A stretch of 64,000 nt of DNA from Nitrospira sp. (GTDB taxonomy: Bacteria; Nitrospirota; Nitrospiria; Nitrospirales; Nitrospiraceae), in the NCBI GenBank assembly GCA_009594995.1, contig VOPR01000005.1, positions 124,001 to 188,000 on the forward strand, read 5' to 3'. Shown here one piece after another: positions 43,790 to 58,546 of the stretch (the stretch's first letter is position 1; each line of letters opens with the position of its first letter). The notes below the pieces were generated by a model. It saw nothing but the letters and a program-made list of their open reading frames with translations, made no database searches and was not told where the DNA came from. The position numbers were made by a program, and so were the translations under genes.

Positions 43790-44188
43790 TTAGTTGGAGA
43801 AGGCAGGAGGACCGCGGCCATGAGCCACCACCAGCGGGCGGCCACCGAAGGAGAGAGCCAGAACCGTGAGGGACACGAAGAGGGAGACGAGCAATGGTAA
43901 TCGAGGGATCTCAGGAAGAATGAATGCCGTCTCATCCTGTGTGACCGTACAGGCCCAAGTGATGAGCGGACTCGCCTCCGCCTGTCCATGGTGACAGGGT
44001 TCATGATCTCCTCCGGCATGGAGGTGAAAACTTCTGGAGGTCGGCTTCTCGAAATCAATGAAGCAGGTGTGACACAGAAACCCGGCAACCACCCGGATGG
44101 CGATCAGCAGACAGGCGACGGCCACCGCCGCGTGAGGCGCCAGGCCGGATCGACGATGCGGGAAGAGTACAGTCTGCGGTGTCGTCAT
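43790..44188 (-). CDS. Small His/Cys membrane protein, DUF2946-like (member 2)
   Basis: From the ATG at 44188 the protein has 132 residues. TM helix 1 ends in CHTC, then the loop has HLHAGGDHEPCHHG and ITWACTVTQDE. TM helix 2 precedes the end GRGPPAF. It is a close relative of member 3 (CATC, HLHGGGDREPCHRG, VNWACSVNQDD). An alternative ATG at 44233 would add 15 residues. It is the first gene of the PepSY-ABC block. Confidence 0.65.
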   Translation of the reverse strand: MTTPQTVLFPHRRSGLAPHAAVAVACLLIAIRVVAGFLCHTCFIDFEKPTSRSFHLHAGGDHEPCHHGQAEASPLITWACTVTQDETAFILPEIPRLPLLVSLFVSLTVLALSFGGRPLVVAHGRGPPAFSN

Positions 44189-44218
44189 CGAGGCTTCCAC
44201 GCGGTGGAGAACGACTTT

Positions 44219-46780: not shown

Positions 46781-47185
46781 TTAGCAGGCGCGGACGGAAA
46801 GCGGAGGACTGCGGCCGGTGGCCGAAATCAGTAGAAGACTGCGATAAGAGACCAGCCACACCACCAGCGGGACAAACAGTACGACCACGACCGGCAGGCG
46901 CGGAATGTCCGGCAAGATGAAGGCGTTGTCATCCTGATTGACCGAACAGGCCCAGTTGACCAGTGGCTTGGCTTCGGCCTGCCCGCGGTGACAGGGCTCC
47001 CGGTCACCGCCGCCATGAAGATGGAAGTTGCGGGTCGCCGGCGTTTCCAGTTCGGTAAAACAGGTCGCGCAGACGATGGCGGCAGCAAGGCGGATCGCAA
47101 TGAGCGCGCAGACGAGGGATACCGCCAGGAGCGGACCTCGTGTCGTCTGTCGAGCCCCATGCATGGAGCGCCATACGCCGTTCAT
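46781..47185 (-). CDS. Small His/Cys membrane protein, DUF2946-like (member 3)
   Basis: The ATG at 47185 follows AAGGGG and gives 134 residues. TM helix 1 ends CATC, the loop carries HLHGGGDREPCHRG, then VNWACSVNQDD and TM helix 2; the end has GRSPP. It is nearly collinear with member 2. It precedes the TonB receptor gene by 217 bp, and both lie behind promoter box d. Confidence 0.65.
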   Translation of the reverse strand: MNGVWRSMHGARQTTRGPLLAVSLVCALIAIRLAAAIVCATCFTELETPATRNFHLHGGGDREPCHRGQAEAKPLVNWACSVNQDDNAFILPDIPRLPVVVVLFVPLVVWLVSYRSLLLISATGRSPPLSVRAC

Positions 47186-47386: not shown

Positions 47387-47896
47387 ATGCCACCTCGCGT
47401 CGATCGGCGCACCGTCGATCTGTCCGCCTATCCTGACCTCGTCGTGATTTACCTGGGCATGCGGGTCAACCGGCTGACCGGACTCAAAACCCTGTTCGGC
47501 TTCGGGCCGAAAATCGCCCAGTCGGTCGAGGCTCAACCGGACGGACTGCTGCTGCACGAAAACCTGCTGTGGTCTCTTCTCCCGCCGCACGTCGGGATGC
47601 GTCAGTATTGGAGAGACTTCGCCTCGCTGGAACGGTGGGCGCGATCCGATCCGCACCGCGAGTGGTGGCAGAGGTTTTTGAAAGATTCGGGAGGAACCGG
47701 TTTCTGGCACGAAACCTATTTCATGCGCGGAGGGATGGAAGCGGTCTACGATGACATGGCGAATGATCTGGGCTTTCTGCGGTTCGCGCCCCAGCAACCG
47801 GCACGCGGGCCGATGTATTCGGCGCGGGATCGAGCACGACAGACTGGGGAACCCACCGCGCCGCTACCCGTGGATGAACGCGGTTACTACTCCTGA
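47387..47896 (+). CDS. DUF4188 family protein
   Basis: The 169-residue protein starts at an ATG with AAGGAGA upstream. DLVVIYLGMRVNRLTGLKTL, then a LERWARSDPHREWWQRF segment and GFWHETYFMRGGMEAVY match DUF4188, a ferredoxin-like monooxygenase-type family (relatives are called phenylacetaldoxime dehydratase-like). It is the only plus-strand gene in the 33-64 kb block, and is convergent with exbD (8-bp gap). Confidence 0.75.
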   Translation: MPPRVDRRTVDLSAYPDLVVIYLGMRVNRLTGLKTLFGFGPKIAQSVEAQPDGLLLHENLLWSLLPPHVGMRQYWRDFASLERWARSDPHREWWQRFLKDSGGTGFWHETYFMRGGMEAVYDDMANDLGFLRFAPQQPARGPMYSARDRARQTGEPTAPLPVDERGYYS

Positions 47897-47903
47897 ATAC
47901 GAG

Positions 47904-48278
47904 TTACAGCCTGACCACTTCTAAACTCACCTGCTGGAACCCGAGACTCCGAACCTCATCGACGACTCCGACGAACTGTTCAAGCAATGTCACACGGTCG
48001 GCGCGGACCACCACCGCCGACCCTTTCTTGTAAGATTGCAATTGCGCGGGCAAGCCGCCCCCCGGCACCGGATGATCGTTGAGAAACAACTGCCCGCCGG
48101 CCGTAAGGGTGATCACCACCGGCACGTCTTTCCGCTCATCTGTCTCCTTGGCCTTGGCTAGCTCCACGGGCACCTGGCCTGTGGATATGAAGGTCGCGGT
48201 CGTCAGCACAATCACCAGCAGGACCAACATCACATCCACCAGGGGGATGACATTGATCTGATTGACCTCACGCTCCAT
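47904..48278 (-). CDS. exbD: Biopolymer transport protein ExbD/TolR
   Basis: The 124-residue protein has one N-terminal TM helix with the conserved membrane aspartate (INVIPLVDVMLVLLVIVL) and a periplasmic domain ending in a VSLEVVRL strand, as in ExbD. With ExbB it couples the proton gradient to TonB. Its start overlaps the exbB stop by 11 bases. The operon lies behind promoter box e. Confidence 0.9.
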   Translation of the reverse strand: MEREVNQINVIPLVDVMLVLLVIVLTTATFISTGQVPVELAKAKETDERKDVPVVITLTAGGQLFLNDHPVPGGGLPAQLQSYKKGSAVVVRADRVTLLEQFVGVVDEVRSLGFQQVSLEVVRL

Positions 48279-48693
48279 GTTGCACCTGATAGGTCGTCAA
48301 TAATTCAGCCACCCGGCGGCGCAGAATGTTGTTCATAACGACGCAGGGAATCGCCACCACTAGTCCGACGGCGGTTGCTTTCAACGCCAGACTGAGGCCG
48401 ACCATGATGCTGCTCACCGCCATCGCACCCAAAGTCCCCATGGTGTGGAACGTCATCATAATGCCCAACACGGTGCCCAGCAGACCGATATAGGGCGCAT
48501 TGGCCGCCACGGTCCCGATGACCACCAGTCGCTTAGTGAGCGCCATCTCACACATTTGAATGTCTGCAAATTGCGCCAGGCTCACGCGTCGATAGTAGAA
48601 CCACCGCTCAACCGCAACCGCCATCGACCAGATGCTCAACGCAACCAACAGCCCGATCACTCCGTACTCCACTCCGAATTTCAGCGACTCCAT
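48268..48693 (-). CDS. exbB: MotA/TolQ/ExbB proton channel protein (short)
   Basis: I start at the ATG at 48693 (GGGAAG upstream), giving 141 residues and three TM helices. NAPYIGLLGTVLGIMMTF and LALKATAVGLVVAIP are the conserved ExbB/TolQ channel segments. The protein lacks the long cytoplasmic region of enteric ExbB (about 240 residues). A longer frame to 48807 exists without a ribosome site. It energises TonB together with ExbD. Confidence 0.88.
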   Translation of the reverse strand: MESLKFGVEYGVIGLLVALSIWSMAVAVERWFYYRRVSLAQFADIQMCEMALTKRLVVIGTVAANAPYIGLLGTVLGIMMTFHTMGTLGAMAVSSIMVGLSLALKATAVGLVVAIPCVVMNNILRRRVAELLTTYQVQHGA

Positions 48694-48820
48694 CTTCCCG
48701 TCGTCCTCCACCATTGTAAAAGTGTTCTTCCTCTCGCCGCATAAAACGGCCTCCGGCGGCAAAATTCGCATTCTGGCCATAGCCGGCACCGGTACGGGGA
48801 GACACATTTGCCAAGGGAAG

Positions 48821-48969: not shown

Positions 48970-50943
48970 TTATTCGAGGTGCCTGGTGAGAAACTGTTCC
49001 AACTCTGAGAACACCTGCAGGCGATCTTCTTGTCGGCTGAGGGTTTCATCTGCCAGAGGCAATTCAACGTAGCGGTAGGTGGTCACCTTAGCCGCCTTCA
49101 ACGCATCAGCCATCGTGCGTCCCTGCGACACCGGTACCGCACGATCCATGGCGCCATGCATGAGCAAGAGTGGCATGCGAATCTCCTGCGCGTGAAAAAC
49201 GGGCGAAGTTTCAAGCAGGCGTTCGCGATCACTCCACCAGACACCAGCGCGCACCTCGCCTCCCTGCTGCTGGTTCAAATACCAGCGGCTGTCCAGTGCG
49301 AGCTGAGAGAGGTCCGTCACCCCGCCCAGGCTGACGGCGCAGCGGTACAGATCCGGCGTCTTCACCACACCCATCAAGGCCGCGTATCCTCCGAACCCGG
49401 ATCCGACGATACAGATCCGGCCGGCATTCGCTATGTCGGACCGAATGACCCATCGCACCACATCGGTGATATCATCCTGCAGTTCCAAGCCACGCCGCTG
49501 AAATCCGGCCCGGAGAAATTCCTCGCCATACCCTTCCGTTCCGCGAAAGCGCACTTCCATCACGGCCCACCCTCGGCTGACAAACCACTGCGTCCAATGG
49601 TTGAATCCATCCGCCATACGAGAGGCAGGTCCGCCATGAGGAAAGACAATCATGGGGAGTCGCTGGGCGTCGCGATTCTTTGGCAGGGTCAGGAATACAG
49701 AAAGTTCCTTGCCGTCGCGTGCCGTGACGAACGTGGTCCTGGGAAAGGCCAACGCGGTGGCGTCCAGATCGGAGTATGCCTTGCCGAGTGGGCTTAGACG
49801 ACCATCTTGCTCGTCGAAGAGCGACCATTGCAGCGGATGCACTGCGCCGCTCGATTGCACGACATGCAATCGGCCGTCGTCGCTGCTGCTGTGAATGATG
49901 TTGACGTACCCGGGCATCGCTCGATCAATACGAGCCTGCAGCCGCTGTGCGTCGAAGTCCCAGAAGAGAACTCGCTGATCCGCCGCGCTGTAGCGGACGC
50001 CAACTACCTTTTTGCGTCCCGGTGCATAGACCAGGTCCCCCATGAGATCAAACCTCGGATCGGCGGCGACCAGGACGCGGTCCGCAGCTCGGTCCACAAT
50101 GTTCACCTTGAAGATCGCGGTCTTGCCCCGGTGTTGGTCCCTCACATAGAGCCAGGCAGGGTCGGCATCGAACGCTAACGGCACCAATCCGGTGTCCTTC
50201 GTCAGATCATACATCGCCAGCTCGCGCCAGAGATTGGACTCCGGCTGCTTGAAGATCACATGGACCATGGTCTGAAATTGCCCCACGCCGACCCGCACCT
50301 TGCCTTCGCGGTCGGCGATCCACTGAGCGATTGTATTCTGCCCGGACTGCGGACCAGGATTTGCCTGCACCAACTGCCGCTCGCCAGAATAAATATCCAC
50401 GTTGTACACGTCCGGAGACAGCGGATGCTCCAAATCGAGCGCGATGAGTACATGTCGGGGATCGCCGGGAATGGTCCCTACGATCTGATCGCGAATCTGG
50501 GGCACATGTTTCTTTCCAAAGAGGGAAGACAACGGCCCCTGCTTGAACAGGCTGGAGATCTGCTGTGTTCCATCTCGATTGACGGCCAGCAGCCTGGTTT
50601 CGGCAGACTCGACCGTCTCGCCCGCCGCCGGGACACGCAGGCCGACCAACAATCGCTCGTCGTTCACCCACCGGAACCAGGTAATGATGTATTCGCGATT
50701 GTCCGTCGAGACGACGCGGTGTACGTCCTCTCCCACCACGGTTTGGGTATCGAGGAACGTCTGTCCTTCATGGTTCCGGAGCACGGCCAGATGCCGACCG
50801 GAAGGGGACAGTTGAATGGATTCGATGCGGGGCAGTGAAACGAACGCCGCGGTGGGCGGCGGGGCGGAGCCGGACTCGGCGTAAGCCGGTGACAAGCTCA
50901 GAACCAAGACAAGAAGAGTAAAAAGTCCGTACATGGCCGGCAC
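48970..50943 (-). CDS. S9 prolyl-oligopeptidase family protein, predicted inactive
   Basis: The 657-residue secreted protein (signal LFTLLVLVLSLSPAYA) has a beta-propeller-like N-terminal part and an alpha/beta-hydrolase domain. In the nucleophile elbow GxSxGGY the sequence is GSGFGGY, with Gly516 at the serine position. The Asp is kept (HGAMDRAVP, Asp600). The usual His (DH) is Glu633 (LADETLSRQEDR). Spacing of the three sites fits DPP4-type enzymes. It is likely a binding protein rather than a peptidase, coded between a TonB receptor and exbBD. Confidence 0.8.
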   Translation of the reverse strand: MPAMYGLFTLLVLVLSLSPAYAESGSAPPPTAAFVSLPRIESIQLSPSGRHLAVLRNHEGQTFLDTQTVVGEDVHRVVSTDNREYIITWFRWVNDERLLVGLRVPAAGETVESAETRLLAVNRDGTQQISSLFKQGPLSSLFGKKHVPQIRDQIVGTIPGDPRHVLIALDLEHPLSPDVYNVDIYSGERQLVQANPGPQSGQNTIAQWIADREGKVRVGVGQFQTMVHVIFKQPESNLWRELAMYDLTKDTGLVPLAFDADPAWLYVRDQHRGKTAIFKVNIVDRAADRVLVAADPRFDLMGDLVYAPGRKKVVGVRYSAADQRVLFWDFDAQRLQARIDRAMPGYVNIIHSSSDDGRLHVVQSSGAVHPLQWSLFDEQDGRLSPLGKAYSDLDATALAFPRTTFVTARDGKELSVFLTLPKNRDAQRLPMIVFPHGGPASRMADGFNHWTQWFVSRGWAVMEVRFRGTEGYGEEFLRAGFQRRGLELQDDITDVVRWVIRSDIANAGRICIVGSGFGGYAALMGVVKTPDLYRCAVSLGGVTDLSQLALDSRWYLNQQQGGEVRAGVWWSDRERLLETSPVFHAQEIRMPLLLMHGAMDRAVPVSQGRTMADALKAAKVTTYRYVELPLADETLSRQEDRLQVFSELEQFLTRHLE

Positions 50944-51153: not shown

Positions 51154-53412
51154 CTAAAACTTGTACTCCACTCCGCCGAAGGCGCTGATCCCGAATCCGG
51201 GGTTGGCGAAACGATTCAACGAGTCGTTCACGACCACCGCTCCGGCGTAGGTCTTGTTCGTGAGGTTCCGGCCCTCGGCGAACAATGTCCAATGCTCATC
51301 AATGTTCCATCCGGACCGCATGTTGATCAACGCATAGGACGGGTTCTTGATCGTGTTGTTGTAGTCCGTATAGAAGCCGGACAGCGACCATTCGACGTTC
51401 GGCGCGATCCACCAACCGGACGGATGATCGTACCGTGCTTCAACATTCAGGCTGTGCTCCGGCGCGCCGGCCACCGTGTTGCCGTCCTTGGCAATCAAGA
51501 CATTGGGGCCGCCGATGCCACCGCCCCGCACATCGTCCGTGAACTTGAAGCGCGACCAGGTATAGGCCACCCGCGTCTGCAAGCTGTCTTCCTTGCCCGC
51601 TCCGCCCTGCGCGAAGAGGCCCTTCTTCAAGACCATGCCGCCGCCGGCCTCCACGCCGGTGTGGCGCGTGCCGTTGGCATTTTGGAAGGTGCCGGTGTTG
51701 TTGATGTTGGAGGCCAGGATCTCCTTCTGCATCTCGAGATTGTACACAGTCACATCCCAACTGTAGCGCTTATCCGCGGAGGTTCCGCGATGCCCCAACT
51801 CCAACTGCCAGGCCCGTTGCGCATCCAGATTCAAGAAACCGGTATTGGCCGAACCGTTGGCATTGATCGCCGAGAGCAACTCGACGTTGAGCGGTGCTTC
51901 ATACGAGCGGCTGGCATTGAAGTATAGTTGCGAGGTCGGCGTCGTGCGGTACACGAACCCGACCTTCGGACTGATGGCCCCGAAATGTTGCAACGGCTTT
52001 TGTGTGCCGCTCGGCGTTGATGGCGTATTGGGGTTGAAAGGATTCCCCGCCGGACCGAAGTTGTCCACGGTGGCCTCGCGTCCCGTGTAGTCCCATCGAC
52101 CGCCGATCACAATCGTGAAGTCCTTCGTGGCATCGAAGGCATCTTCGGCATAAGCGCCGAAATACGTGGTCTTCGCCGTGTAGTTCTGTGTCATCGCCCC
52201 GATGTTACCGTTGATGTTCACAAACCGTTGTTGCCGCTGATTGCCATAGCGAGGTTGAAATCCGGCGACGAAGGAGTTGTTCTTCCCGAACAGGGTGTTC
52301 GAATTCACGTACCGGAACTCGCCGCCGACGTTGTTATTCTCCTGCCGGATCGTCTGAAAAATTGGATGGTCCACATATTGGTTCGAGAAGTAGGGAATGA
52401 TCTCGAAGAACTGATTCGGCGCGAACTCGTTGTGGTACGCGATGCCGATCCGCTGCAGCGTGTAGTACCGGCCCCAGTTACAGGCCTGGTTGCTCGACAC
52501 ACAAGCGAAGAACGGCGGCGCTCCGGCAGGGCTCTGGCCGCCAGTTTGCTGCCGGTTGAAGAACATCTGCTCATTGGTCAGCGAACCGGGAATCCGTTCC
52601 GCCACATTCGCCTGCAGGAAGTAGGCGCGGATCTCCTGATGGTTGCCGAGTTGCAAGCCGATGTTGGCATTGATGCGTTCACGGGCCTGCTGACTATTGT
52701 CCTGGAACCCGTCCTGCCGGTTCCCGGATACGCTGATGTAATAGTCCATCGTGGCGCTCATGCTGCCCACCTGGAACGGCTGCAGGACTTTGCCGCTCGA
52801 CACCTGCCCGCTCACCATCCCGAAACTGCCGCCGAGCATGCGCATTTGCAGCGTCGAGGCGCTGTAGCCGGTGCGCGGCACGAAGTTGATTGCGCCGCCG
52901 ATGCTGTTGGCGCCGTACCGCAAGGCGTTCGCGCCCTTGTAGACTTCGATACGCTCGTAGGCCAGGAGGTCGATCGACTCGAAGTCTGAGAACCCGTCGG
53001 CATCGCCGAAAAAGATACCGTTGATGAGAATATTGATGCCGCGATGATGGAAATTGTTGCGTAAGGACGTGCCGCGAATTTGAAACTGCCCCTCATCGGC
53101 CCCGAAACGCGACTGGAACCGCACCCCCGGAGCGAACTGCAAGACATCCTGCAAATTCAACGCGCGTGATTCGGTAATCTGCTTCTCTTCAATGAGGATG
53201 TTGCTGCCGGGACGACGCGCAAATTCCCGCTTCACATCCTCGACGTTCTCGATACGTTTGCCGCTCACTTCCACCGGGTCCACCGCCACCACCGGCGCCT
53301 CTTGATCAACCGGCTCCTCAGCCGCGCGCGCAACAACCAAGCCGATGCCCGTTTCCACAACAAGAGCTGCCAGGCAACCCAGCGCGAACACACTCCACCC
53401 CCTCCGCTCCAT
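51154..53412 (-). CDS. TonB-dependent receptor (FecA-like plug)
   Basis: The ATG at 53412 after GGAGAGAGGGA gives 752 residues with a signal peptide ending ARA. The plug has FQIRGTSLRNNFHHRGINIL and IEVYKGANALRYGANSIGG; the barrel ends GVEYKF. The sequence style is that of ferric-citrate and xenosiderophore receptors. The gene is followed by the S9-family gene and preceded by an amidohydrolase gene. Ligand unknown. Confidence 0.88.
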   Translation of the reverse strand: MERRGWSVFALGCLAALVVETGIGLVVARAAEEPVDQEAPVVAVDPVEVSGKRIENVEDVKREFARRPGSNILIEEKQITESRALNLQDVLQFAPGVRFQSRFGADEGQFQIRGTSLRNNFHHRGINILINGIFFGDADGFSDFESIDLLAYERIEVYKGANALRYGANSIGGAINFVPRTGYSASTLQMRMLGGSFGMVSGQVSSGKVLQPFQVGSMSATMDYYISVSGNRQDGFQDNSQQARERINANIGLQLGNHQEIRAYFLQANVAERIPGSLTNEQMFFNRQQTGGQSPAGAPPFFACVSSNQACNWGRYYTLQRIGIAYHNEFAPNQFFEIIPYFSNQYVDHPIFQTIRQENNNVGGEFRYVNSNTLFGKNNSFVAGFQPRYGNQRQQRFVNINGNIGAMTQNYTAKTTYFGAYAEDAFDATKDFTIVIGGRWDYTGREATVDNFGPAGNPFNPNTPSTPSGTQKPLQHFGAISPKVGFVYRTTPTSQLYFNASRSYEAPLNVELLSAINANGSANTGFLNLDAQRAWQLELGHRGTSADKRYSWDVTVYNLEMQKEILASNINNTGTFQNANGTRHTGVEAGGGMVLKKGLFAQGGAGKEDSLQTRVAYTWSRFKFTDDVRGGGIGGPNVLIAKDGNTVAGAPEHSLNVEARYDHPSGWWIAPNVEWSLSGFYTDYNNTIKNPSYALINMRSGWNIDEHWTLFAEGRNLTNKTYAGAVVVNDSLNRFANPGFGISAFGGVEYKF

Positions 53413-53482
53413 TCCCTCTCTCCTTTTCACGCCCAGACCGATTGTGAGATGACGACTCGACGCTGGTTGTGAGCGTCGGATT

Positions 53483-54892
53483 TTAATGCCCCAGGTGAAT
53501 CGCTGCTGACGAGGCAGCGCCAGAACCGACTGAATCACCCAGAAACACACCCTGTTTGAATCTTCGACGGATAGCCTGCACCTGTGAAAAATCTTCGATT
53601 GGATTCCCTGCAAGCGCCAAGAAACTGGCCTCATACCCCTCGGCGAACCGTCCGATCTTGCGAGTCGGAAAGATCGCGGCCGGAGTCGCCTCACACCACA
53701 TCTTGAGCAACGTGAGGTTGTCGAAAAGACCCAACGAGTGCAGGTGCAGCACTTCGGCCAGCGACGTGTCGGCATGATCGCTGCCGATCACCAGCGGTAC
53801 GCCCGCGCGATGAAGCAGGCTAAGATTATCTTTTAAGACCTGCTCAACGGGCTCATCGGCTGACGAAGCGTGATGTTCATTCGACTTGGAGGCAGGGCCC
53901 TCGTGATGGCCATGCCCATGATGCCCGCCGATGGACGGCATGGCGCGTCCTGCCACGCTGGTGGTGACGACACGCACCCTTCGCGCCGTCGCGAGCTGTC
54001 CATCCCCCTCCGTCAATCTGGCGCGTTCCGCGTCATCCGCTCCGCTCACCAGCCAGCCAGGCACGTGGGCAAGCTCATCCACTCCCGCACGAACCGCATG
54101 GCGAAAATCAGCCGCCGTTTCGACGTGGGCCGTCACTTGCAGGCCGGCTGCATGGGCCTTGGCGACAACGCGAGGCACCAATGCAGGATGCAGCCCATGC
54201 CGTCGCGGATTGCGTCCGCTCGTTCCATGCACCTCGCCGTCCTCGGAATGCACGAGATACACCTTCACGAAGTCCGGCTGCCCGCTGGTGATCAAGGCCC
54301 ACTTCTGCTCGATGTCCGCTTCTGTCTCGACCACGACGTACGCCCGATTCTCGAACCATCCCCGTTCAAGGGGCCCGAGCGCCGGCTCATATCTCCCCAC
54401 TCGCAACACATCTTCATACAGAGGGCCGGGATGGCCGCCCGGTCCCGTCAGGCCCGCATGCGCAAAGGTGGCGTCTATGCTTGTCCGCAGATTGACGGCC
54501 GGGCGGATCTGCAGGGCGAAGTCCCGCACATTGTTCGGGTTCTTCACATAAAATACGCCGTCCTTGAGATACCGTTCCGCGACCGACTGCACATTCCATG
54601 GGCCTTCGACATTGTGATTGTGCGCTTCCCCGAACGGCGGGACGATGAAGAGGCCGAAAAGATCCACCGTCCTGACCGGCCCCTGCGGTGGTTGGCGGGT
54701 GAGACGGCCCTGCACCGAATACCAGGTGGTGGCTTGAAATCCCTGTCCGTCAAACCAACGGCCATTGACGAAGGCATACGTCTGAGCTTTCGACGCCTCT
54801 CCGTCAGGCAAGCTCCCCGGAGGAACAGACATCACAGAGGTTCCCGCACAGCCGGCTAACAAGCCAACCAATACCAGCACGACAAGGTTCAT
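53483..54892 (-). CDS. Lipoprotein amidohydrolase with His-rich insert
   Basis: The ATG at 54892 after AGAGGGAAATC gives 469 residues with lipobox LLAGC. The amidohydrolase barrel shows HNH (FGEAHNHN), the carbamylated-Lys candidate in FVKVYLVHS, further His in QVTAHVE and LAHVPG, and Asp in IGSDHAD. A loop rich in His (GGHHGHGHHEG, NEHH) is inserted after about residue 330. It is an imidazolonepropionase-type relative of unknown substrate. The stop of the HTH twin lies about 70 bp upstream. Confidence 0.82.
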   Translation of the reverse strand: MNLVVLVLVGLLAGCAGTSVMSVPPGSLPDGEASKAQTYAFVNGRWFDGQGFQATTWYSVQGRLTRQPPQGPVRTVDLFGLFIVPPFGEAHNHNVEGPWNVQSVAERYLKDGVFYVKNPNNVRDFALQIRPAVNLRTSIDATFAHAGLTGPGGHPGPLYEDVLRVGRYEPALGPLERGWFENRAYVVVETEADIEQKWALITSGQPDFVKVYLVHSEDGEVHGTSGRNPRRHGLHPALVPRVVAKAHAAGLQVTAHVETAADFRHAVRAGVDELAHVPGWLVSGADDAERARLTEGDGQLATARRVRVVTTSVAGRAMPSIGGHHGHGHHEGPASKSNEHHASSADEPVEQVLKDNLSLLHRAGVPLVIGSDHADTSLAEVLHLHSLGLFDNLTLLKMWCEATPAAIFPTRKIGRFAEGYEASFLALAGNPIEDFSQVQAIRRRFKQGVFLGDSVGSGAASSAAIHLGH

Positions 54893-54961
54893 GATTTCCC
54901 TCTGCATGCCGGACGACGCCGGTTGCGCTGTCCGGCACGCAGATCTTTTGCAACCCACACC

Positions 54962-55221: not shown

Positions 55222-57582
55222 TTAAAACAGTCCGAACGTCACGCCGCCGTAAATCGCGCGGCCATACCCTGCGAAAAATGCCTGCTGCCCGGCGGCAGCT
55301 CCGGCGGTTTCGCCGCCGATCACCTGGCCTGATGCGGCGTATTTCTTGTCAGCAATGTTGTCCAGCTCGAGGTAGAACTTCGCAAACCGGAACCACGAAT
55401 TCTTCAGATCGAAGTTCTTGTGCACGTTCACATTGGCAATCATGTAGGAGGGTATGCCGAAGGTGTTGCTGTTGTTCAGGAAGTAACTGTTGTAGTAGCT
55501 CCCCTCGACCCAGGCACCCCAACCGGTCGCCGCATGGTCGTAGGCGACTTTGGTGTTCAGGACATCGGTGGGCACGTTGGGCACCTTGTTGCCGTCCCGC
55601 GTCAGGAAGCCAGCGGCGGTATTCAACCGATCGGCAAAGTTGATGTACTTCGCCTCGATGTGCGTATACGCGCCGGACAATCGCAGACCTTCCACCGGTC
55701 GCCAGTCGTAGAACGCTTCGATGCCCTTGTACTGGGATGAGTCCGCATTGACGGACGCCGTGTTGGTACCCGACACCGCTTGCGTGATGATTTCGTCCTT
55801 GAAGAAGGTCCAGAACCCGACGAGTTGCACGGTGAGGGTCTTCGTCAGTTTCGATTCCGTCCCGATTTCGAAGTTGAGATTTTTTTGCGGCTTCAGATCA
55901 AAGTTGGTGCCAGGCTGCCCGGTCACCGGATTTCTGAGGAGGTTGGTAAACCCCGGAATGCCGTACCCAGTGGATGCCCGCGCCCAATGCCGTTGCGCAT
56001 CGGTCGGCTTCCACGTGACGGACATTTCCGGAGCCCAATTCGTGTATGTGCGATTGGCCCCAGCTCTCGTATTTACGGCGCCTTGTGTACAGGTCACATC
56101 ACCCGGGGCGCAGTAGTTTATTGCTTGCACGCTCAACATCGATTGTTCGAATCCAAGACCGGCTGCCAGTGTGACCTTCGGAATGAATTCCAGTTCCTCC
56201 CGGACTCTGCCGCCGACGTTTCTGATAGTCCCGCGTGAATTCTGAATCAGAGTTCCGCGAGTGCCGAATCCGTCGGCCAGGTTCTGGAAGGTCTGCGCTT
56301 CCTGCTCCATGTTGCTCAGGAAGAACCCGACGTAGCTTCGCAGCGGCATGTCGAAGAGCCGTCCGTCGTGCCGCAGATCGGCATAGTGCTTGTAGTTCGG
56401 ATTGACGTTGTCGCTGATCTGAGAAAACGTCTGATTGATATCCTTCACGTCGTAGTCGGCTTCGATCGTCAGCACCGTGTTGGCATTGATCTGCCGCTCG
56501 TAAATGCCGCCGATGATGGTGCGTCGATCCAGCCGCCGTTGGGCCAGCCGCTCGGCATCGCTACAGGTGTTGGCATTACAGACCACGTTGGTGCCGCCGG
56601 CCTGCCGGTGATCGGCGTTGAACTGCGCCTGCGTCAACCGGGTGGGCACCCGCGCATCGAGCCAGTTCGTGATGGCCTTGAAGTAGAAGTTTTGTTTGTC
56701 GTCGATTTTGAAGCGCAGATTTAAATTGATGGTCTGCGTGCTGTAATTGCTGTTTCGGATGAATCCGTCTTCCCCCACGTTGCTGATGAAGAGGGAGGCA
56801 TCGAGATTCTCGTATTGCTGTCCGACCGCGATCCCCTCCTTGTGATACCCGAATGAACCGCCGCTGAGGAACGTCTCGACACCGTTGATGTCGCTTCCGC
56901 GTCTCGTCCGGAAGTGCACCATGCCGCCGAGCGCGTAGTTGTCATAAAGCGACGAGGATGCGCCCCGGGTGACTTCCACACTGCGCATGAACCAGGGATC
57001 ATGAATATCGAGCCGCGACAACCCGTCGGATTGAGTCTGAATAAATCCATCCTCGTACATCTTGATGTCCCGGACGGCGAAGGTAGTCTTGGCGCCTTGC
57101 CCGCGAATCATCATGCTGAAATCCCGCGGGCCGTTAGCCTGCCGCAACACCACGCCGGGCAACGACTCCATCGACTCCTTCATCGTCCTGGTCGGCTGCG
57201 CTTCCGTCTCCGACTGCTCCGTTGATGACAGGGACAGCCCCTCGGGCCGCCGTTGCACGCGATCGCTCACGATACTGACGTCGGACAGCTCGTATTGCGG
57301 AATCGGCTCGGCGGTCTTCGACTCCGGCACTTCCTTCACAACAGCCGGCCGGGTCTGAGGCGCCGCGGTTCCTGCTGCCGGTTGCTGCTGCAACTCATCC
57401 AACTCGCGAAGAATGTTTTGCAATTGGTCACGCAAGTCGCGCTCGCGCGCGCTCTTCTCGACAACCGCTCCAGCCGCCGTCTCCTCCTGCGCAAACGAGG
57501 TGGCGACGGTCAACGGCATCACCGACAACAAGGCACAATAGATAACGGCATGACATCCGAATGAATGACGACGGGCCCACAT
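55222..57582 (-). CDS. TonB-dependent receptor with N-terminal coiled coil
   Basis: The ATG at 57582, seven bases after GGAGG, gives 786 residues. After the signal (ending SFAQ) there is a short Glu/Gln/Leu coiled-coil part (RDLRDQLQNILRELDELQ) not usual for such receptors, then a plug (SMMIRGQGAKTTFAVRDIK, VEVTRGASSSLYDNYALGG) and a barrel ending GVTFGLF. It follows TlpA and a small His/Cys protein and is followed by HTH twin 2. Ligand unknown. Confidence 0.88.
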   Translation of the reverse strand: MWARRHSFGCHAVIYCALLSVMPLTVATSFAQEETAAGAVVEKSARERDLRDQLQNILRELDELQQQPAAGTAAPQTRPAVVKEVPESKTAEPIPQYELSDVSIVSDRVQRRPEGLSLSSTEQSETEAQPTRTMKESMESLPGVVLRQANGPRDFSMMIRGQGAKTTFAVRDIKMYEDGFIQTQSDGLSRLDIHDPWFMRSVEVTRGASSSLYDNYALGGMVHFRTRRGSDINGVETFLSGGSFGYHKEGIAVGQQYENLDASLFISNVGEDGFIRNSNYSTQTINLNLRFKIDDKQNFYFKAITNWLDARVPTRLTQAQFNADHRQAGGTNVVCNANTCSDAERLAQRRLDRRTIIGGIYERQINANTVLTIEADYDVKDINQTFSQISDNVNPNYKHYADLRHDGRLFDMPLRSYVGFFLSNMEQEAQTFQNLADGFGTRGTLIQNSRGTIRNVGGRVREELEFIPKVTLAAGLGFEQSMLSVQAINYCAPGDVTCTQGAVNTRAGANRTYTNWAPEMSVTWKPTDAQRHWARASTGYGIPGFTNLLRNPVTGQPGTNFDLKPQKNLNFEIGTESKLTKTLTVQLVGFWTFFKDEIITQAVSGTNTASVNADSSQYKGIEAFYDWRPVEGLRLSGAYTHIEAKYINFADRLNTAAGFLTRDGNKVPNVPTDVLNTKVAYDHAATGWGAWVEGSYYNSYFLNNSNTFGIPSYMIANVNVHKNFDLKNSWFRFAKFYLELDNIADKKYAASGQVIGGETAGAAAGQQAFFAGYGRAIYGGVTFGLF

Positions 57583-57698
57583 ACACATCCTCCCGGCACA
57601 ACGGTGCACATGACAGTAGAGATAGCCCCTTCGCGCCCCTGTCTGAACGGACGAGAAGAGAAGCTAGACGACCTAGCGAGATGAAATGGAATTAGAAA

Positions 57699-58019
57699 TT
57701 AGGACTGAACGGGTGGCGCACGAGAGGCGGCGTGAAACCTGACGCCGCCCGAAATGACATCATGGCTGCTCTCGACAAAGAGCGTGGCCACGAGAAACGG
57801 CTGAAGAAACAGCGCGACAGGGCCCGCATCAGACGTGGGATTTGCCTGACAGGCCCAGACACAGAAGCTGGAGTGAGAAACGGTTTCACCGTGGTGGTGG
57901 GCGGCCGGCTTCGCATCGGCATGGTCGAACACACACGTGACGGAAAAGACTGCCAGGATCAGATAGATCCCTGCCAGGGCAGCCGCCAGTCCGATGGAAG
58001 GTTTTGTCACACGACTCAT
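57699..58019 (-). CDS. Small His/Cys membrane protein, DUF2946-like (member 4)
   Basis: The ATG at 58019 overlaps the stop of the TlpA gene (ATGA), so the two are coupled. The 106-residue product has one N-terminal TM helix (GLAAALAGIYLILAVFSV), His-rich AHHHGETVSH, CVWACQA and the end SRAPPVQS, collinear with member 1. It leads to a TonB receptor gene, like member 3. Confidence 0.7.
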   Translation of the reverse strand: MSRVTKPSIGLAAALAGIYLILAVFSVTCVFDHADAKPAAHHHGETVSHSSFCVWACQANPTSDAGPVALFLQPFLVATLFVESSHDVISGGVRFHAASRAPPVQS

Positions 58020-58546
58020 GGCATCAAACTTTGCAATGCGCGCACGGCAGTCGGCGCATCCCACTCGCGCGGCCCGACGGCGCGGCCGATCAGCGTTCCC
58101 TGCTGGTCAATAAACACCGTCGTCGGCAAGGCCCGGACGAGATACGCATGGGAGACGTCCTGATCTTCATCAAACAACACCGGCAACTGCACATGGAGAT
58201 TGGTCAAAAAATGCTTGATGCCCTCCCGCTGCAAGTCGGTCGTAATGGTCAGTAGCGCGAACCGTTCGGGATCCAACTGCTGTCGCAACCGCTCGAAGGC
58301 CGGCATTTCTTCTTTGCAGGGCCCGCACCAGGTGGCCCAGAAATTTACCACGACCACTTTCCCCTTCAACTGCGCGAGTTGCACCGGCAGTCCGTCCAGG
58401 GATTTCAAATCGAACGGCGCCGCTACGGTTCCTGGCGCCACCCGCCCGACTTTCAAAGGGGCCAACCGGTCGTCGGCGAACGCAGGAGCTGCGATCAGCC
58501 CGAGGATCACCGACAGTATGAGACTCTTCACCGATGCCGTTGGCAT
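58016..58546 (-). CDS. TlpA/ResA-type periplasmic thioredoxin (1)
   Basis: The 176-residue protein has a signal peptide ending AFA and a thioredoxin fold with WCGPC at residues 73-77 (NFWATWCGPCKEEMP). TlpA/ResA proteins reduce disulfides for cytochrome c or copper-site assembly. The cis-Pro segment is LPTTVFIDQQG. It overlaps the small His/Cys protein gene by 4 bp and follows the BNR protein gene. Confidence 0.87.
   Translation of the reverse strand: MPTASVKSLILSVILGLIAAPAFADDRLAPLKVGRVAPGTVAAPFDLKSLDGLPVQLAQLKGKVVVVNFWATWCGPCKEEMPAFERLRQQLDPERFALLTITTDLQREGIKHFLTNLHVQLPVLFDEDQDVSHAYLVRALPTTVFIDQQGTLIGRAVGPREWDAPTAVRALQSLMP

Follow-up and report, generated by a model that had tools for sequence, protein, structure and literature searches.

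Organization of the locus

The window, i.e., the whole stretch of 64,000 nucleotides of a Nitrospira sp. contig (VOPR01000005.1) that was analysed, contains a run of minus-strand genes extending from 58064 to 39161. In order, this run encodes a small protein with HHHG and CxWACQ motifs, a TonB receptor (55222), an amidohydrolase-like protein, a further TonB receptor (51154) and a homologue of S9 peptidases, followed by ExbB, ExbD, a small protein, another TonB receptor (44347), a small protein, a PepSY-TM protein, an HlyD-like protein, and ABC and MacB-like genes. The features that concern us are:

57699..58064 (-), small membrane or secreted protein upstream of the 55222 receptor; HHHG and SHxxxCxWACQ motifs, C-terminal RAPP
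55222..57609 (-), second TonB-dependent receptor; closest solved structure PqqU/YncD
53483..54958 (-), amidohydrolase-like protein; PF01979 at 1.7e-5, just under the cut-off
51154..53433 (-), TonB-dependent receptor directly upstream of the S9 gene; Plug and barrel Pfam matches
48970..50943 (-), S9-family homologue, predicted non-peptidase; PF00326 at 9e-33, residues, fold and orthologues
49396..49398 (-), codon 516, GGG (Gly), nucleophile position; residues and orthologue alignment
49144..49146 (-), codon 600, GAT (Asp), triad acid; orthologue alignment
49045..49047 (-), codon 633, GAA (Glu), His position; orthologue alignment
48268..48807 (-), ExbB; TIGR02805, above cut-off
47904..48278 (-), ExbD-like protein; best match TIGR02804, below cut-off

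The S9 gene starts with GTG at 50943, from which the codons above are counted, and encodes 657 amino acids in a frame that is open from end to end. An apparent signal peptide (MPAMYGLFTLLVLVLSLSPAYA) is followed by a beta-propeller (residues about 30-395) and an alpha/beta-hydrolase domain (396-657), and the PF00326 match (114 bits) lies above the cut-off of 22.6. A scan for promoters and terminators around the gene returned nothing exceeding chance.

A peptidase fold with an altered triad

The nucleophile elbow reads IVGSGFGGY, with Ser515 and Gly516, and the HGGP motif is retained. Alignments (phmmer) to the solved S9 structures 8wt1 and 5l8s set Gly516 against the nucleophile Ser of GGSYGG and Glu633 against the catalytic His, and the same columns are obtained with the intact Nitrospira paralogues, where the alignment between 516 and 633 is free of gaps, giving spacings of 84 and 33 residues. 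Of the residues expected in an active S9 enzyme, the Ser of GxSxGG and the catalytic His are thus missing and the catalytic Asp (Asp600) is present, exactly as a sequence-only reading of this DNA had proposed. The same reading had called the spacing DPP4-type and the alignment secure; both spacings and alignment hold, but in sequence and in fold the protein is closest to acylaminoacyl-peptidase/S9C-like enzymes (5l8s, 1ve7, 8wt1), not to DPP4 in particular. These share the whole-length fold and give the best sequence matches, yet they carry Ser-Asp-His.

An AlphaFold2 model (pLDDT 80.8, pTM 0.82, with low-confidence stretches at 470-484 and 553-569) reproduces the propeller and the alpha/beta-hydrolase, and in structural comparison it comes closest to acylaminoacyl peptidases and S9 enzymes related to them (5l8s, with Z 28.2 over 571 residues at rmsd 3.7), DPP4 structures ranking somewhat lower (Z about 25-26). 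Position 516 falls after strand 510-515 and before helix 517-528, position 600 after strand 592-596, and position 633 after strand 623-627; read from this one predicted model, relative to strands and loops, the three residues occupy the canonical places of the triad. It is 516, not 515, that sits at the turn between strand and helix, which speaks against a working triad built on Ser515, one of the two outcomes that the earlier reading had named as its own refutation.

Membership in two curated families was rejected: the protein reaches 53.5 bits against a cut-off of 900 for Dpp5 (NF053518) and 25.5 bits against 400 for the lasso peptide isopeptidase (NF033523). The latter (Atxe2/SpI-IsoP) resembles our homologue in being a secreted S9-type protein that is encoded together with TonB receptors, and there is a weak profile match, but it is an active enzyme, unlike the predicted state of the protein described here.

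Conservation across Nitrospira

A search of 101 relatives recovered the gene in 27 of the 29 Nitrospira genomes, including some copies that are divided between contigs or truncated where a contig ends. One of the two remaining genomes (G009) holds the intact paralogue only, and the other (G017, 84% complete) neither gene nor paralogue. Public relatives of the protein are nearly all labelled Nitrospira. We compared 24 distinct full-length members of this clade, including one from another genus of the family (L061, 58% identical). Position 516 is Gly in 22, Asp in one (L026/L078) and Asn in one (L061); Ser occurs in none, a consistency that neither chance nor an error confined to one sequence would explain. 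Asp600 is invariant (24/24), position 633 is Gln in 12, Glu in seven, His in four and Tyr in one, and position 515 is Ser, or Ala in seven members. Within the hydrolase domain of the 24 orthologues, no conserved Ser, His or Cys gained by the clade was found. The nucleophile is thus gone throughout the clade, with the His site free to vary. The member with Asp at the nucleophile position (L078/L026, genome G004) retains Asp600 and His633 and is formally Asp-Asp-His, a set resembling that of haloalkane dehalogenases; most likely it represents a stage of loss.

Pairwise dN/dS over seven clade pairs was 0.10-0.23, similar to the 0.12-0.18 of intact relatives, and on this basis the gene is under ordinary purifying selection and not decaying. 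Together with its presence across the genus, this supports the retained non-enzymatic role that the sequence-only reading had suggested. Changes at positions invariant in ten intact homologues affect 7 of 26 positions on the catalytic face, as delimited by us from strand ends of the model, against 4 of 63 in the rest of the domain (Fisher p=0.013; p = 0.06 without the two triad residues), a clustering that we regard as suggestive only. Several of the changed positions are fixed anew in the clade (Ala631 in 24/24, Asn448 in 23/24, Gly540 in 22/24).

History of the triad loss

In a tree computed with the triad columns masked, the clade groups with two proteins (50-51% identical) of a different genus in the family: L068, with Ser-Asp-His, and L069, with Gly-Asp-His. 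The two are mutual closest relatives (support 100/100), and the join of the pair to the clade is less secure (93/89). The next clade out consists of intact Ser-Asp-His paralogues (L047-L053, L064, L076), followed by Alteromonas and then by distant S9s, all intact. L068 has its triad at the same aligned columns and in the same kind of locus, which indicates that the ancestor was intact and the loss came later; the triad has not been relocated, which was the other result that could have overturned the earlier reading.

The fewest changes on the tree are four at position 516 and eight at position 633, and the simplest reading is that Ser was lost independently at least twice, a single loss followed by regain in L068 being possible but less likely. 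From the AGC codon of L068, GGC or AAC is one step away and GAC two. His is still present in three Gly516 members and in the Asp516 member, which fits an order in which the nucleophile was lost first and the His later.

Intact Nitrospira paralogues (L047-L053, Ser-Asp-His, 46-47% identical) lie mostly near TonB receptors and ExbBD. They occur alongside the clade gene in five genomes (G004, G015, G018, G023, G025) and alone in G009. The window's own genome (assembly 90% complete) holds no other convincing S9 peptidase, its two other matches being short alpha/beta-hydrolase frames.

Association with TonB receptors

At every locus whose contig reaches far enough, in three genus-level groups, the gene immediately upstream of the clade S9 gene encodes a TonB receptor. 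In most cases this receptor is of the 51154 type, which is 84-98% identical and adjoins the S9 gene in most Nitrospira, and elsewhere (L010, L027/L039, L031/L041, L028/L061, L062/L068) it is of the 55222 type, which is also the adjoining receptor in the deepest branches. Since L068, with its intact triad, sits behind a 55222-type receptor, the link to receptors probably predates the loss of Ser. Strict co-occurrence of the S9 gene with one receptor was not found across the relatives: both receptor types are present without a clade S9 in other genera, the amidohydrolase-like gene pairs with the 51154 receptor even where S9 is absent, and Nitrospira G009 retains this pair and has no clade S9. 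Adjacency to ExbBD is variable in the pseudo-peptidase clade and frequent in the active paralogue clade, so that of the receptor-ExbBD locus earlier proposed as the setting of the protein, the receptor part is upheld by synteny and the ExbBD part varies. PQQ is not proposed as a receptor ligand: PqqU/YncD is the nearest structure for both adjacent receptors, yet they score 178 and 126 bits against a PqqU cut-off of 1200.

Proposed function of the S9 homologue

We consider it probable that this protein descends from an active, receptor-associated S9 peptidase, has lost catalysis, and is retained in the periplasm as an accessory or binding protein that serves a TonB-dependent uptake locus without hydrolysis. 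The predicted loss of peptidase activity is strongly supported by sequence; the role as a receptor helper is suggested by the gene neighbourhood, synteny being no proof of interaction, and the protein is presumably periplasmic. The ancestor would have been an active S9 peptidase associated with a TonB receptor, in which the nucleophile codon AGC (Ser) changed to codons for Gly, Asn or Asp. The catalytic His would then have been free to drift, with Asp600, the propeller and the fold kept. The ligand of the propeller and the remodelled pocket could be a peptide, or a metallophore linked to one, that the neighbouring receptor releases, or it could be the receptor itself; the S9 homologue might hold, hand over or gate the cargo, uncut.

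Several other explanations compete with this one. The protein could still be an enzyme, using Ser515 as a shifted nucleophile or some other chemistry with Asp600, given that it retains the fold, Asp600 and the HGGP motif and that a Ser adjoins the old nucleophile; we think this very improbable, as Ser515, rejected as a replacement nucleophile, is Ala in 7/24 orthologues, 20/24 have Gln, Glu or Tyr in place of the His, and within the hydrolase domain no Ser, His or Cys has become conserved anew. That it is a functionless, decaying gene is hardly credible: two triad residues are lost, and the family does suffer losses, as in the intact-type paralogue of G006, but the low dN/dS largely rules out a pseudogene, the full-length copies have intact frames, and the gene is present in 27 of 29 genomes of the genus and in the same place.

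Many S9 enzymes oligomerise and some Nitrospira hold an active paralogue near ExbBD, which would suit a regulator or decoy acting on such a paralogue as a hetero-oligomer or a substrate competitor. This too is very improbable, because the intact paralogue is found in few genomes of the genus, and the window's genome has no other convincing S9 to which the protein could merely be a partner; on the latter ground, pairing with an active S9 as a heteromer within one cell was rejected. An envelope sensor or structural part, for which receptor proximity would reflect nothing but shared regulation, is unlikely, but it would accommodate both the alternation of the receptor partner between two types and the ability of G009 to manage without the clade S9. 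The receptor directly upstream at every testable locus, across the three genus-level groups, argues against it.

Comparison with inactive S9 proteins

Where the role of an inactive S9 homologue has been worked out, it is mainly in animal ion channels, and our homologue is ordinary in the sense that non-peptidase members of S9 are already known. Human DPP10 and DPP6 have Gly and Asp, respectively, at the nucleophile position, both are inactive subunits of Kv4 channels, and attempts to restore activity by reinserting Ser were reported as unsuccessful (PMC4350108). The fly DPP10 is subunit and peptidase at once (PMC4873792), and L068, whose triad is intact and which lies at a receptor locus, may be comparable to it. 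Like the Nitrospira protein, DPP10 and DPP6 (S9B) combine a propeller with an alpha/beta-hydrolase, and both replacements, the Gly of DPP10 (GKGYGG) and the Asp of DPP6, also occur in the Nitrospira clade. DPP6/DPP10 have been shown to associate with a membrane transport protein; for the Nitrospira S9 such an association is proposed from gene adjacency. DPP10 retains the triad His, whereas the Nitrospira clade is mostly without it, and DPP6/DPP10 are membrane-anchored members of S9B, whereas the Nitrospira protein is bacterial, secreted and nearer to acylaminoacyl peptidases. The losses of the nucleophile are independent, in separate lineages, and the proteins are alike in their evolution and perhaps in how they work, without belonging to one group. 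Tentatively, then, the protein could be the equivalent of DPP6/DPP10 in bacteria, a pseudo-peptidase of the S9 family turned dedicated periplasmic subunit or cargo binder of Nitrospira TonB receptors, its nucleophile lost at least twice in the same receptor-linked lineage.

Bacterial S9 pseudoenzymes at TonB loci were not found in the literature searched (mostly without subscription papers). What is unusual is that a whole bacterial genus has the altered protein fixed at TonB loci, and that stages of the loss can still be seen. As active, half-lost and fully lost states coexist at comparable loci of a widespread nitrifier genus, it becomes a testable question how the enzyme served the receptor before cutting ceased. 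Annotation calls for caution, as such genes score well on peptidase profiles and should not be counted as peptidases.

Additional observations

The listed open reading frame of the 51154 receptor (to 53775) is over-long, its first ~115 residues overlapping the amidohydrolase gene and being unmatched in most relatives. The sole opposite-strand gene inside the run (47387-47896, +) encodes a Monooxy_af470-like protein (PF13826, 2.6e-24). Small putative membrane proteins beside the TonB receptors (57699-58064, 46781-47185 and 43790-44200, all on the minus strand) are of two kinds, one with HHHG and SHxxxCxWACQ and the other with CxTCF, FHLH, CHxGQ and WACxV, ending near xPP (RAPP, GRGPP); they have no Pfam match and possibly handle metal. 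In G006, a TAG and a change of frame interrupt the intact-type paralogue (L054:6807-8982), and the Gly516 copy is retained. A C-terminal S9 fragment of about 140 residues in G059 (L055:9295-9807), with its His retained, lies right behind a 55222-type receptor and is a remnant of the receptor-S9 arrangement.
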